A stretch of DNA of 64,000 bases from Xestospongia bergquistia (taxonomy: Eukaryota > Porifera > Demospongiae > Haplosclerida > Petrosiidae). The notes beneath the pieces were generated by a model, which worked only from the letters and a program-made list of their open reading frames with translations, made no database searches and was not told the origin of the DNA. Shown one piece after another: positions 2,520-62,699 of the stretch. The stretch spans positions 15,272,446 through 15,336,445 of the forward strand of contig OZ014411.1 in the NCBI GenBank assembly GCA_963965975.1, read 5' to 3'. Position numbers and translations under genes: made by a program. Each line of letters starts with the position of its first letter. Position 1 is the stretch's first letter.

Positions 2520-4140
2520 GATTTAAAATTTAAGAAAACTAACAATTCAATAAAGCTACCTTAAACACCTTTGGAAAGTGAAAAGCTGAAAAAGATGCTA
2601 AAAGGCAAAGAAGCTAGCTAGACAAAACATAAGCTGAATCAGTAGTACATTTCTTGAACTTATGTAGTTGTGATAGATAACTTATTGAATCTTTATTAGA
2701 ATATGATAGAATATTTACTTAATATTATTTAGTTCATATTTATATAATTGATTTAATTAACCAGTTCAATCCAACATTGATCTTAGATTGTAAGATGCAC
2801 AGCATCTAGTTGATACTTCAAATAGTGATTCTAATTGGTTACATATATGCATATGTATAAATCAATTTTTAAATTTTCAATCGAAAAATCAATTGTAAAG
2901 TCTATGCCATTTCTAGAACCTATATGTAGTATAACATTAGTTAGAAACAGAGTCATTTCACATACTTTAAGAAATCCGTTACTATTTCCTGCAACAATGA
3001 TTTTTGATCCCTAAAATAAAAAGCAGAGATTTACATGGAAACAGTTATTTTTAGAGATTGAAGAAGACGAGTTAATCTATTGTTACTTGACGTGTATCAA
3101 TATTGTGTCCTTTACTTTTTTAATGCATACAGCTGATACAAATTCTTTTTGTGCATCATGATCATTTGCAACAGGCTAAAGAAAACAGATAATAAAGACT
3201 TGACAGTGTCATTCAATAGGATTAATTGACTAAGTCTATTTAAGATTTTCCCATTAACAATATAATGTAATGTACACTAAATATATACTTCTTATTAATC
3301 AACTTACTAAAACACTTCTTGGGATTGTGAACTTATACTTGAGTATAGGTTGACTTACATATTTTTGATAAACATAAAAAGAGTTGTTTTCTGATCCTAA
3401 CAGATCAGACAGTGTGTCATATATAAACAAATGTTACTTCATACCACAAGCAATATATCCATTGTTAACAGATAGTCCGACGAATTTACTTTCATTGGTG
3501 TGACTTTTGTAAATTCTTTCACAGGTTCCTTTATCAAGATTCCAAATTTTCAGTTCACCATCTATTGAGCTATGAGAAGTACAATTTATTCATCAACTCA
3601 GCTAGCTAGACATCTTTACACAGTAATAGTAACTTACGCTGAGACTATAACTCCTTATCATTAAGGTACTAACACATAGGAAACAGCCTTTTTATGACCT
3701 CTCAAGGACAATACAGGCTTTGAAAACATTCTTATATCCATCAACCTAATTATACAATCTGCAGAAATGATACATAACTTTGTAGATTGCAATTAAAGCC
3801 ACTATGATTATAGTAATTAAGCTATTTTCTGATGGACAGTTACATAGCATATGCATTCTCTTACCAGTACTGGCATATCCCAGATAATGTCTATTGTTAG
3901 GTTGAAATCTCACACAACAGATATTAGCTTGTGTAGGTTGAGACTGAACACTATGGTTTAATGTTAAATGCCACAGTTTAAGAGAACAGTCATCACCCCC
4001 AGAAGCCAAGAGAGATGGGTCATAGTTATTATAATGTATCAACCATACCCTTTTCTCATGCTCCTAAATAGTAGAATGATATGCTCAATAGTAATATACC
4101 AGATCCTCATTCTTTGGATTGAGGAAGTACTGAGAGGTTA

Positions 4141-58385: not shown

Positions 58386-59710
58386 AAAAAAAGGAATTGG
58401 AATGTCTGCTTCTGTAGAAGCATGACTCATCTAATTCTTACAGTTTCTTATTATAATATTCATAAAGTGATTGATATTTTGTAAGATTTCTTTTGACAAC
58501 CTTTGATCAAGATTTTGGAGATAAGCAGCAGACTAATTTTGGACATATCATATTCCATCGGTCACACCAAACTCTCCATTTAACAACAAGGCTATGCATA
58601 CATAAAGAAAAGCTATAAGAGTGACTGAAGCATACAGTTTACTCTCTTAGAATCAAGCATCAGCAAAATGTATCCAATTTGGTTGGGTTTATGACTTTGG
58701 CTGTGCATTCTTATGTCTGCCCTCAGCTTCCATACCAACTAGGTCATTAATAGGAATTTCCAAATACACAAAGGTGTGTGAAAGAAATAGAAAATGGGAA
58801 TTAGAACATTTGTTCTCAGCCTCTGTAGAAGCAAGACTTCTTATTCCTACAGTTTCTTACTATAATATATATGAAGAGATTCATATTTCTAAGAATTCTT
58901 TTAACAAGCCTCGGATCAACATTTTGTGGAAAAGAGATAAGCAGTAGACTAATTATGGTCATATCAAATTTCATACGCATGAGGCACATCAAACTCTCTC
59001 TACTCAACAACAAGGTTATGTATACATACAGAAACGCTATAGTGTCACTGAAGTATACAATATATTTCTATTTACTAACAAATGGTCAATTCAATAAAGA
59101 AGACTAATTCTACACAAAAATATAATTAGGCATTGAAATGGTTAATAAATTGCTACTAATCCATCTGTTTGTGAGTCAATTTAAAATGGGTTGTGCAACA
59201 AGGGTTACGAAAATAGTTCACCTTGTGTCCAATTACATGATGGTTTGTGAAAGTAATAAAAAAATGGGAATTGAAACATTTGTTCTCAGCCTCTGTAGAA
59301 GCACAAATCCTCTTATTCTTACAGTTTCTTACTATAATATATATGAAGAGATTAATATTTTCTAAGAATTCTTTTAACAACCCTCGGATCAACATTTTGC
59401 AGAAAAGAGATAAGCAGTAGACTAATTATGGTCATATCAAATTTCATATTCATGAGGCACATCAAGCTCTCTATTCAACAACAAGTTTATGCATACATAG
59501 AGAAAAGCTCTTAATGTGACTGAAGTATAAAATATATTTCTATTTACTAACAAATGGTCAATTCAATAAAGAAGACTAAATCTACACAAAAAATATAATT
59601 AGGCATTAAAATGGTTAATAAATTGCTAATAATCCATCTGTTAGAGAGGCATTTTAAAATGGGTTGTGCAACAAGGGTTACAAAAATAGTTCACTTTGTG
59701 TCCAGAGCCC
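58386..59710. repeat. Three tandem copies of a 410-470 bp repeat
   Basis: Starts near 58386, 58780 and 59250. Shared landmarks: ctctgtagaagca at 58812 and 59283 with a variant at 58404, and ataagcagtagactaatta. Copies 2 and 3 are very similar; copy 1 is more diverged. No coding potential seen. Confidence 0.8.
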
Positions 59711-60060: not shown

Positions 60061-60635
60061 AAAGGTAGTGATACGACACGCATTGACACGCATGCGCAGT
60101 ATTTTATGCATCAATTTGACGCATGCGTAAAGGTTTCTCAAAGGTCGAGCAACGTATCAAGAATGGAGACATCTTTTTGGGAGGCATGTTTTCATTGTTT
60201 ATCTGGTTTTTGATTAGAAGAAAAAACTGTAACAAACAATCTAAACAAAGCAAGCTCTGTCTGCGAGAACGGTAAATCACCTTTCGACAATATCAGACGT
60301 CCGTACTTTGATGACTGAGTCAAAAGAAACATCTGTCAATACAAGTATTGTTCAAGATATAGAAGTATTGACTAAAAAATTAGCAGACATGATCTCCACT
60401 TTAAAGGGTAACTTCAGTCATTTTTTAACATATTTTTTAAATTGTATATTATCAATGTATTATACTTGAAAGTCACGATTCACGCCTTGTTAGCTAAAAA
60501 AGATTTGTAGTGTCGCAGTACAACGTTCATGAAAACGCCGGAAACGGAACAGTAGCGGCCATTTTGAAAAACACTTCCTGTTTGAGGCGTGGTGATCTTG
60601 TGACGTAGATGGGGGAACCTTGTGAAGACTGAAGA

Positions 60636-61010
60636 ATGGGAAAGCGGTGTGTAGTAACTGGTTGCAGCAACACTCACAAGGATGGAGTGAGTCTGTTTAA
60701 ATTTCCCTCGGACAAAAAGTTGCGAAGAGAATGGATAAGACAGGTCCAACGAACTAGAGCCAAGTGGAAGGACCCAGGCGAATATTCTTGTGTGTGTAGT
60801 GCACATTTTGCTGAAGACTATTTCCAAGCCATATCTAGTATGTGCCAGAAAGTTGGCTTAAAGATGAAGCAAATGCTGAAGCCAGATGCTGTGCCAACTA
60901 TATTTCCCAGACCTTCTGATACTAAAATTCATAAAAGAGTATCTTCAGCATACAAAAAGAGAGAACACATAAGAATGTGTTTAATAGTAGATAATTATTG
61001 TGTTTTTTAA
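60636..61010 (+). CDS. THAP-type zinc-finger protein
   Basis: 124 residues with a full C2CH THAP domain at residues 1-90: MGKRCVVTGC gives the first two ligands (Cys5, Cys10), then FKFPSD, a conserved Trp at 33, C-S-A-H (Cys54, His57), and the closing AVPTIF motif at 85-90. THAP domains bind DNA and occur in P-element and Kolobok transposases. The start is the ATG 17 bases inside the left inverted repeat. After residue 95 the tail is basic (HKRVSSAYKKREH) and ends at TAA with no further domain, so a transposase C-terminus is missing or on an exon I cannot find. Confidence 0.88.
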   Translation: MGKRCVVTGCSNTHKDGVSLFKFPSDKKLRREWIRQVQRTRAKWKDPGEYSCVCSAHFAEDYFQAISSMCQKVGLKMKQMLKPDAVPTIFPRPSDTKIHKRVSSAYKKREHIRMCLIVDNYCVF

Positions 61011-61054
61011 GTACTATCATCCTTAGCAATTAATGAACCTAGCACTGCCATGGT

Positions 61055-61499
61055 AAATAATAGTTATGTACAGTGCATGTTTGATGCTACTGTAGGATAT
61101 AGGATTATACACTCAACATCCTCTGATTTTTTTTTCTTGTATTTCAGGAGTTTCGCAACAGCACACACACTCCAAGTTAGTTGGCATCATCACACAGTGC
61201 CCACAAACACACCTGGAGAAAACAGATTGCTTTATGTACAGATATGATTTGCTTTGTGTACTTACCAGTCCGTATTACCAAGCCTAGAATTATCCTCCAG
61301 ACTGGAATGATCTGATTCATTGTCTGAAGATTGACTATAATCTTATAGTAGCTTCTGGCTCATACATGAATGGCCTAACAGAATTTACACGAACTGGTTC
61401 CGAATCGATTTCTTCGTTTTCCTCAAAATCATACGAAGAATATGACATCTCCAGATCTCCAGTTTCTTCTTCAGAAGCAATTGATGAATCGTCAGACAT
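61055..61499 (-). CDS. P2X7 C-terminal (ballast)-like cysteine-rich protein, two exons, damaged
   Basis: Minus strand. Exon 61499-61266 starts MSDDSSIASEEETGDLEM, is acidic, contains RPFMYEPEA, then SSLEDNSRLGNTDW, ending at a GTAAG donor. Exon 61212 downward follows a tctccag acceptor in perfect phase: W-C-V-C-G-H-C, then MMPTNLECVCCCE, then ECIILYPTVASN. The pattern LGNTDWC-x-CG-x-C, MPT, EC-x-CC and EC-I is that of the P2X7 receptor's C-terminal cysteine-rich domain, which also exists as free-standing proteins in invertebrates. Damage: a frame change near 61325 after EPEAT, and one in a run of nine A residues near 61135; a stop follows. No ion-channel part is present. Confidence 0.72.
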
Positions 61500-62699
61500 G
61501 CTTTTACACGTGGAATCGTTCCCCCATCTACGTCACAAGATCACCACGCCTCAAACAGGAAGTGTTTTTCAAAATGGCCGCTACTGTTCCGTTTCCGGTG
61601 TTTTCATGAACGTTTTACTGCGAAACTACAAATCTTTTTTAGCTAACAAGGCGTGAATCATGACTTTCAAGTATAATACATTGATAATATACAATTTAAA
61701 AAATATGTTAAAAAATGACTGAAGTTACCCTTTAAGGGAACTAGAAGACAGGTTATTGACGGCAAATATCACAACAAAATCACTTACTTTTAGAGATGTG
61801 CTACTTGAAGACAATAGACTTATCTTGGACTAAAATAGCTAGACTGTTTGGTAAATCAAGAATGTCACTGTCATGAAACAAAATGAAGCTGGAATTTTGA
61901 ATAACATAACTGATGAAGAACTAGAAGAGAATGTTTGTGCATATGGCATAAAAAAGGATATGCCTAATTTAGGAAACAAATAATTTTTGGAATGTTGTCT
62001 GGTCTTCATGTTCAATGATGTAGGCTTAGACATGTTATTCACTCTGTTGATCCAATCAATACTGCTATGTGTTGATGCCAAAAGATCCATAGATGTATTT
62101 AAATTATGTTGTACGTATACCTGGACCAATGGCTCTTCAGCATATAGGCATGTTCATCAGTTATAACATACAGACCTTTCCATCAACATTGTGGACATGA
62201 TAACTATAACAGATTTTCAACTATTTTCTAACACAAAATTATCGTTTTTCTTAATTTTAATTTATGTTCACATATTTCAAATTTATAGAACCACTAATCA
62301 AATTATTACAAAATTTTGATTAAAATTATTTTGCTTTACATGGCAACCATAAACTTGTTTGGTGAGAGATTGTCATACATGGTTGATGACTTCAAGGATG
62401 ATTGTATATGCTCTGACATTCCATTATTACACTGCCTCTGTGAAGGCTATGCTTCACATGTATTTCCACCTTTATTGCATCAAAGACAAGAGGATAATTC
62501 ATGGCATAATCTTTTTAATACTGTAACACAATTCTATTATCGCATGTTCGATTCTTTTTAGAAGAAGGCATTCTTAGTCATGTTGCAATATATAGCGGGC
62601 ATTTGCTTACCATAGTTTATGATAACATCTCATATGTGCTAAAATAAGGACAGCAACCATTATGATTGTCCAATAAGATTAAACGAAAATAGAAGAAAC

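Follow-up and report, generated by a model that had tools for sequence, protein, structure and literature searches.

What kind of element lies at positions 60405 to 61731 of the window, the 64,000-nucleotide stretch of Xestospongia bergquistia DNA analyzed here, and how complete are the two genes that face each other within it? A sequence-only reading had described a compact Kolobok-like element with two unrelated inward-facing genes, one for a THAP zinc finger and one for a P2X7-C-like domain, between inverted repeats that would act as twin promoters. Our analysis indicates, with a probability of roughly 0.92, that the element belongs to the Kol0 lineage of Kolobok DNA transposons and is a non-autonomous copy shortened by internal deletion. 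The earlier observation is partly confirmed and its interpretation partly supported; the main features of the finding are real.

Structure and insertion site of the element

Reading of the window identified a TTAA-flanked element with near-identical inverted repeats of about 214 bp. An inverted-repeat search recovered arms at 60401-60618 and 61518-61735 that are 98% complementary over 218 nt including the TTAA, as had been claimed. The termini read AGGG...CCCT, and the left end is TTAA-AGGGTAACTTCAG. The left terminal inverted repeat, with terminus AGGGTAACTTCAG, occupies 60405-60618 on the plus strand, and the right one occupies 61518-61731 on the minus strand. The target-site duplications are the TTAA at 60401-60404 and the TTAA read in the window at 61732-61735. 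A query made of the joined flanks, holding a single TTAA, matched two uninterrupted paralogues with an empty TTAA site, at C1:15712065 (98%) and C1:15835124 (95%). Together with the 98% arms, these paralogues agree with the suggestion of a recent insertion.

The surroundings of the insertion (60280-61870) form a low-copy repeated stretch, with kin flanks at C1:15.25, 15.33, 15.53, 15.71, 15.79, 15.84, 16.60 and 17.59 Mb and further, shorter matches elsewhere on C1. Elsewhere in the window, 59000-59704 contains a direct repeat with a spacing of about 472 nt between copies; its three blocks measure 116, 81 and 39 nt and are 93%, 95% and 87% alike, respectively.

The THAP reading frame is most likely a transposase exon

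On the plus strand, an open reading frame of 125 amino acids (60633-61010) matches the Pfam THAP family over model positions 1-87 of 87 (E=6.6e-21). Its ATG at 60636 lies 17 nt inside the left repeat, and the ATG of the opposing gene lies 18 nt inside the right repeat, in keeping with the earlier description of starts about 18 bases inside. The translation from 60636 to 61010 contains an AVPTIF box; THAP is a usual motif of Kolobok transposases, and the box is reported there (PMC6004289). The THAP frame had been taken for one of two unrelated genes, which now appears mistaken. Because transposase-like segments follow THAP on the same strand at three loci (L020, L027 and L041), we consider it most likely the first exon of a Kolobok transposase, present in the window without the catalytic part.

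At L020, THAP is accompanied by a 170-amino-acid transposase-like segment and three exon segments of KolX, the name given to the Kol0 accessory protein (PMC9587614). L027 holds THAP, further transposase-like segments and a convergent KolX. L041 also holds THAP and further transposase-like segments, and a search for KolX at this locus found none. The L041 core gave two Pfam matches, both sub-threshold, to MULE (1.9e-4; 22.2 bits against a cut-off of 27.6) and to a Mutator-like family (1.1e-3). It contains YDIWH, a candidate for the DxxH (C/DxxH) motif common to Kolobok, MuDR, P, hAT and Dada transposases (PMC9587614). No transposase segment exceeded the Pfam cut-off among those of L020, of L041 and the four segments scanned alongside the L041 core. 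Those four matched no transposase family in Pfam, the L020 segment matched Zn_ribbon_ZPR1 alone (E=0.0036), and a 211-amino-acid segment of L041 had no PDB match at E<=1. The L020 segment also matches two other loci (three further rows of matches), and the L041 core matches four other places in the host genome.

In L020, the stretch that separates KolX from the right arm contains an open reading frame of 81 amino acids (L020:5635-5880, minus strand), which resembles part of another transposase by eye and matched no Pfam family above the cut-off. At a separate THAP locus (L048, G000:C7:1904300-1909300), two THAP copies lie within a 1,062-nt perfect inverted repeat.

The opposing gene is a broken KolX remnant

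The gene on the minus strand reads M-S-D-D-S... from its ATG at 61499. The ORF list and family alignment place exon 1, the acidic N-terminal part, at 61266-61499. It is followed by an intron at 61265-61213 (GTAAGT...CTCCAG), whose GT and AG are kept in 6 of 6 aligned family copies. The 5' part of exon 2, at about 61212-61105, carries the P2X7-C-like cysteines CVCGHC...CVCCC of the P2X7 ballast zinc-cysteine segment; it was delimited with the ORF list, the L020 alignment and the family alignment, and is cut by the deletion. The sequence-only reading had reported that both reading frames and the splice phase match. This did not hold: exon 1 carries a 10-nt insertion relative to L020, L022, L023 and L024, so that the frame from the KolX ATG meets a stop at 61337-61335 and does not reach the donor at 61265. 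The insertion is common to the window and L021. In exon 2, a run of A is one base longer than in L021-L024 and equal to that of L020, and the last KolX exon is deleted. The convergent THAP and P2X7-C-like exon pair is thus present as described, but the element holds one THAP exon and a KolX remnant, not two intact genes. Because an exon is lost and the frame is broken, it is very unlikely that the product of this copy would form a folded ballast domain.

The KolX exons of the window had no Pfam match at E<=1, and the cysteine exon had no PDB match at E<=10; the P2X7 identity of this remnant rests on its longer relatives. Open KolX frames match Pfam P2RX7_C at L042 (2.2e-11) and L043 (5.8e-10), and the L043 frame matches P2X7 chains in the PDB (best E=2.2e-5), P2X7 being the sole molecule matched among the four sequences listed. 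In the AGGGAGGGTATC family (L042:2640-3053, L043:2735-3145 and L044), a single open frame of 134-138 amino acids spans KolX exons 2 and 3, and the three compared KolX segments of L042 are free of gaps and stops.

KolX of Kol0 Kolobok families is reported to match residues 476-595 of human P2X7, and P2X7 is proposed there to have arisen through fusion with KolX, with Kol0 also in sponges and cnidarians (Kojima & Bao 2022, PMC9587614). The earlier suggestion that such elements could have spread the C-terminal domain of P2X7 is not new; that paper published it in 2022. The ballast domain had been described across animals by Rump et al. 2020 (PMC7016195), whose abstract and sections 11 and 14 name no transposons; the same paper shows an Ixodes open reading frame with a "TAHP" domain, which we take as THAP, ahead of the ballast part. 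A full-text search for P2X7 and Kolobok together returned PMC9587614 and a review (PMC9319628). A search of viral contigs for a KolX relative gave 7 pattern matches, 0 of which were confirmed.

Family copies and the origin of the compact form

We searched the host genome (G000; 146 Mb, 21 contigs) with the repeat, a check that had been proposed with the earlier reading. The repeat of the window family is represented by 11 arms at six places, and KolX sequence adjoins it at all six, as the claimed linkage would predict. When the genome was scanned for the terminus pattern with at most 3 mismatches, 11 sites matched, of which 10 belong to these copies; the reversed control pattern matched 4. The two near-identical copies, at C1:15251852 (L021) and C1:15527482 (L022), have flanks in common with the window, alike at 98.9/99.3% and 97.2/95.0%, respectively. 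To judge from these flanks, they are segmental duplicates of one insertion, not separate insertions. Apart from the place in the window itself, the remaining ones are C1:639910 (L020, 3,173 bp), C1:17138632 (L023, 1,763 bp) and C2:13035716 (L024, one arm).

Alignment by blastn paired the window element with positions 1-712, 2180-2562 and 2967-3173 of the L020 element. The 1,467 bp of L020 between the first two aligned blocks, which hold the 170-amino-acid transposase-like frame and more of KolX, are absent from the window. The corresponding junction lies at 61098-61104 and is flanked by L020 element positions 712 and 2180. On this alignment, the small size of the window element is the outcome of an internal deletion. 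L020 is itself damaged, with its THAP frame shifted and the KolX start codon absent. L023 has a THAP frame with one stop and all three KolX exon segments; a transposase segment was looked for there and not found. At L042, L043 and L044, no THAP match was detected, and KolX was kept together with an open reading frame resembling the C-terminal part of the L027 transposase (59% over 34 residues for L042; the L043 and L044 frames are alike). The loss of differing parts in different families looks like ordinary internal deletion.

THAP and KolX are linked across the host genome

KolX-like sequence was searched for twice, and merging of hits within 700 bp left 49 places; 88 THAP places remained after merging. 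These counts are lower bounds. THAP lies within 3 kb of KolX-like sequence at 21 of the 49 places, and all 21 pairs are convergent. By chance, about 0.3 of the 49 KolX places would be expected within 5 kb of THAP. When three segmental duplicates are counted once, 19 linked places remain. The claim that THAP and P2X7-C-like genes are physically linked on a mobile element is therefore supported.

The other 28 KolX-like places have no THAP within 3 kb. Six of these were fetched (L024 and L042-L046): L042-L044 are the elements without a THAP match, and L024 is cut at its THAP end. KolX and THAP comparisons covered L024, L042, L043 and L044, and the check for repeats alone covered L045 and L046 and the THAP loci L047 and L048. 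Repeats bound 18 of the 25 loci L020-L044, with TTAA at both ends in 16 of the 18 (the exceptions are L023 and L026); for seven (L024, L027, L029, L033, L036, L037 and L041), repeat bounds could not be placed. Most of the transposase-like sequence sits in L027 and L041, two of these seven. By their termini, the 18 bounded elements fall into five families.

Class assignment and alternative explanations

The Kolobok class proposed earlier is supported. The TTAA duplication is present at both ends and corroborated by the uninterrupted paralogues, and the AGGG...CCCT termini have the 5'-RR / YY-3' form, here beginning AG; both fit Kolobok as described in PMC9587614 and PMC6004289. The window frame encodes THAP with the AVPTIF box, and the second protein, which marks Kol0, is KolX with the P2X7 ballast segment, broken in the window and matching P2RX7_C and P2X7 in the open frames of relatives. 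In the longer relatives, long terminal inverted repeats enclose a THAP-bearing transposase gene and a convergent gene for the KolX accessory protein. Of this layout, the window copy retains the two repeats, the first exon with THAP and the 5' portion of KolX; the transposase core and the 3' portion of KolX are lost. We infer that transposase supplied in trans moved it by its repeat ends. If it is produced, the leftover THAP peptide may retain the ability to bind these repeats. Weighing against the class assignment are the transposase segments, none of which passed the Pfam cut-off, the seven loci that could not be bounded, L027 and L041 among them, the negative search for KolX at L041, and the 28 KolX-like places with no THAP nearby.

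A piggyBac-type transposon would use a TTAA target site as well, and a few piggyBac families have KolX-like C-terminal parts (PMC9587614). Nevertheless, we regard this assignment as very improbable: the termini start with the purines AG, in AGGG, and 5'-RR termini are the difference between Kolobok and piggyBac given in PMC9587614; exon 2 has CVCGHC...CVCCC, whereas the piggyBac proteins of that paper are without most of the conserved cysteines; and THAP is a usual motif of Kolobok transposases in PMC6004289. Chance capture of two host genes, THAP and P2X7-C-like, between unrelated repeats might seem plausible from PMC7016195, which treats ballast genes as host genes for short proteins across animals. 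It is already contradicted by the recurrence of the convergent pair at 21 places and in five repeat families with TTAA, and we give it practically no credence.

An unlikely explanation, although the least so of these three, is that the compact pairing of THAP and KolX is a functional unit, kept for the expression of both, perhaps as repressors or helpers of transposition acting in trans, for which truncated P-element products offer a comparison. Several families contain elements in which THAP adjoins KolX and no transposase segment was detected, and all five comparable F5 copies have an open KolX first-exon segment. Ratios of non-synonymous to synonymous differences (N/S), from counts pooled over copy pairs with L046 left out, were 0.41-0.81 in seven of eight segments. 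However, the eighth segment has 9 non-synonymous and 0 synonymous differences, the pairs are non-independent, and the ratios are partly inherited from an intact ancestor. The ratios fit both selection on compact copies and such inheritance and do not separate the two. Moreover, several copies contain stops or frame shifts, KolX of the window is broken, and deletion gave another product too, that of L042-L044, in which KolX accompanies the transposase-C-terminal-like frame without a THAP match. We favor the internally deleted Kol0 transposon over all three.

A partly conserved block near the inner ends of the repeats

We aligned the arms of 17 elements from the five families (F1 to F5). Their middles differ, and a block near the inner end is partly common. 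In the window arms, the block lies at arm positions 158-206 and contains, in order, GCCATTTT, TTCCTGTT, AGGCGTGG and TGACGT. The left copy (60558-60606, plus strand) is a candidate promoter of the THAP/transposase gene, and the right copy (61530-61578, minus strand), which has the same motifs in the arm alignments, is a candidate promoter of KolX. In a scan of the arms for single motifs, run without a shuffle control, the window's family alone showed all four clearly in its representative. The third motif is missing from F3 and the first from F4; in F5, the first and third occur only in mismatched form (1 and 2 mismatches, respectively), and within F2, L035 is without the first two and L026 has GCCATTTT. 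The best place for the full TGACGTCA in the window arms is near the outer end, with 2 mismatches; the inner end shares TGACGT only.

With block limits (135-215) chosen after the alignment was seen, the inner similarity of F1 and F2 was reached by 0 of 300 shuffles in either arm set. Of the family pairs, F1-F2 and F2-F4 were strongly similar in both arm sets and some others moderately so; similarity was absent for F2-F3 and F3-F4 in both arm sets and for F1-F4 and F1-F5 in the left. The middle stretch reached z of 2.2-2.7 in 4 of 20 family comparisons. F4 is the best natural test of retention, since its two arms have diverged: their inner parts match with z=9.4 (0/300 shuffles) and their middles weakly with z=1.8 (20/300). 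In a test of 8-mers, with each arm set of one representative per family (the window element, L035, L034, L032 and L043) compared with shuffles, the common 8-mers in total (26 per arm set; shuffle means 17.6 and 21.1, maxima 41 and 36) were not above shuffles, nor were those in all five families (1 and 2; means 1.2 and 1.9). GC-rich 8-mers alone stood out, modestly: each arm set had 3, where the shuffles averaged 0.17 and 0.26 and reached 3 at most.

The block is retained in both arms, close to the start codon of either gene, which is compatible with one promoter per gene. There is thus some support for the repeats as twin promoters, a claim upheld weakly by the partial recurrence of the inner block across five families. 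Alternatively, the block may be a transposase binding site. We tentatively propose, at slightly under even odds, that a host-type core promoter (GCCATTTT - TTCCTGTT - GGGCGTGG - TGACGTCA-like) is maintained in duplicate in Kol0 elements, close to the inner end of each long repeat. One homogenized promoter, present as two copies, would then drive coordinated expression of the transposase and KolX; the repeats would be long largely for that purpose, convergently with MuDR, and hosts would inherit a movable promoter pair. Host factors that could bind the motifs are, we presume, YY1, ETS, KLF/SP and CREB/ATF. The 200-bp repeats of MuDR are described as promoters for mudrA and mudrB (PMC8224964). 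The word "promoter" is absent from the main texts of PMC9587614 and PMC6004289, and promoters in Kolobok repeats were not a topic in the titles and abstract beginnings of the full-text matches listed. The promoter-like block in both arms may be a new part of the finding.

Relation to known systems and other host sequences

The closest described elements are the Kol0 Kolobok families of the Kolobok-1_XT type (PMC9587614), which the window element resembles in TTAA, 5'-RR termini and KolX with the ballast segment, and from which it differs, as a deletion derivative, in that the core of the transposase and the 3' portion of KolX are missing. The Xenopus T2-MITE and XKol elements (PMC6004289) are non-autonomous Kolobok relatives with TTAA, AGGRR termini and a transposase THAP with the AVPTIF box; unlike them, the window element has retained remnants of coding sequence. 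PMC6004289 does not use the word KolX in its main text. In maize MuDR (PMC8224964), the repeats promote a transposase gene and an accessory gene, and non-autonomous derivatives share the repeats. MuDR differs in belonging to the MULE superfamily, with other proteins, and its promoter role is stated there, whereas here we infer it from sequence. The ballast domain of P2X7 and NANOR-like proteins (PMC7016195) is the same zinc-cysteine domain as in KolX; there it is fused to a channel or encoded by a gene taken as the host's, whereas here it belongs to a transposon accessory gene.

The window element itself is a decayed, non-autonomous member of a known lineage, and the P2X7 link is already in print. 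Coming from a probably early-branching animal, the present data lend independent support to the published view that the C-terminal domain of P2X7 originated in a transposon protein. They also make the linkage of THAP and KolX countable genome-wide, and the partly conserved inner block provides a specific, testable proposal for how both Kol0 genes may be expressed.

The searches of G000 also revealed two COX1-like fragments with stops (C6:3154917-3155898 and C6:3199148-3200446), which are probably nuclear mitochondrial DNA. COX1 on contig C21 has a 538-amino-acid frame that is open under code 4, with TGA at 12 codons and AGA 7 times; code 4 suits sponges and cnidarians.
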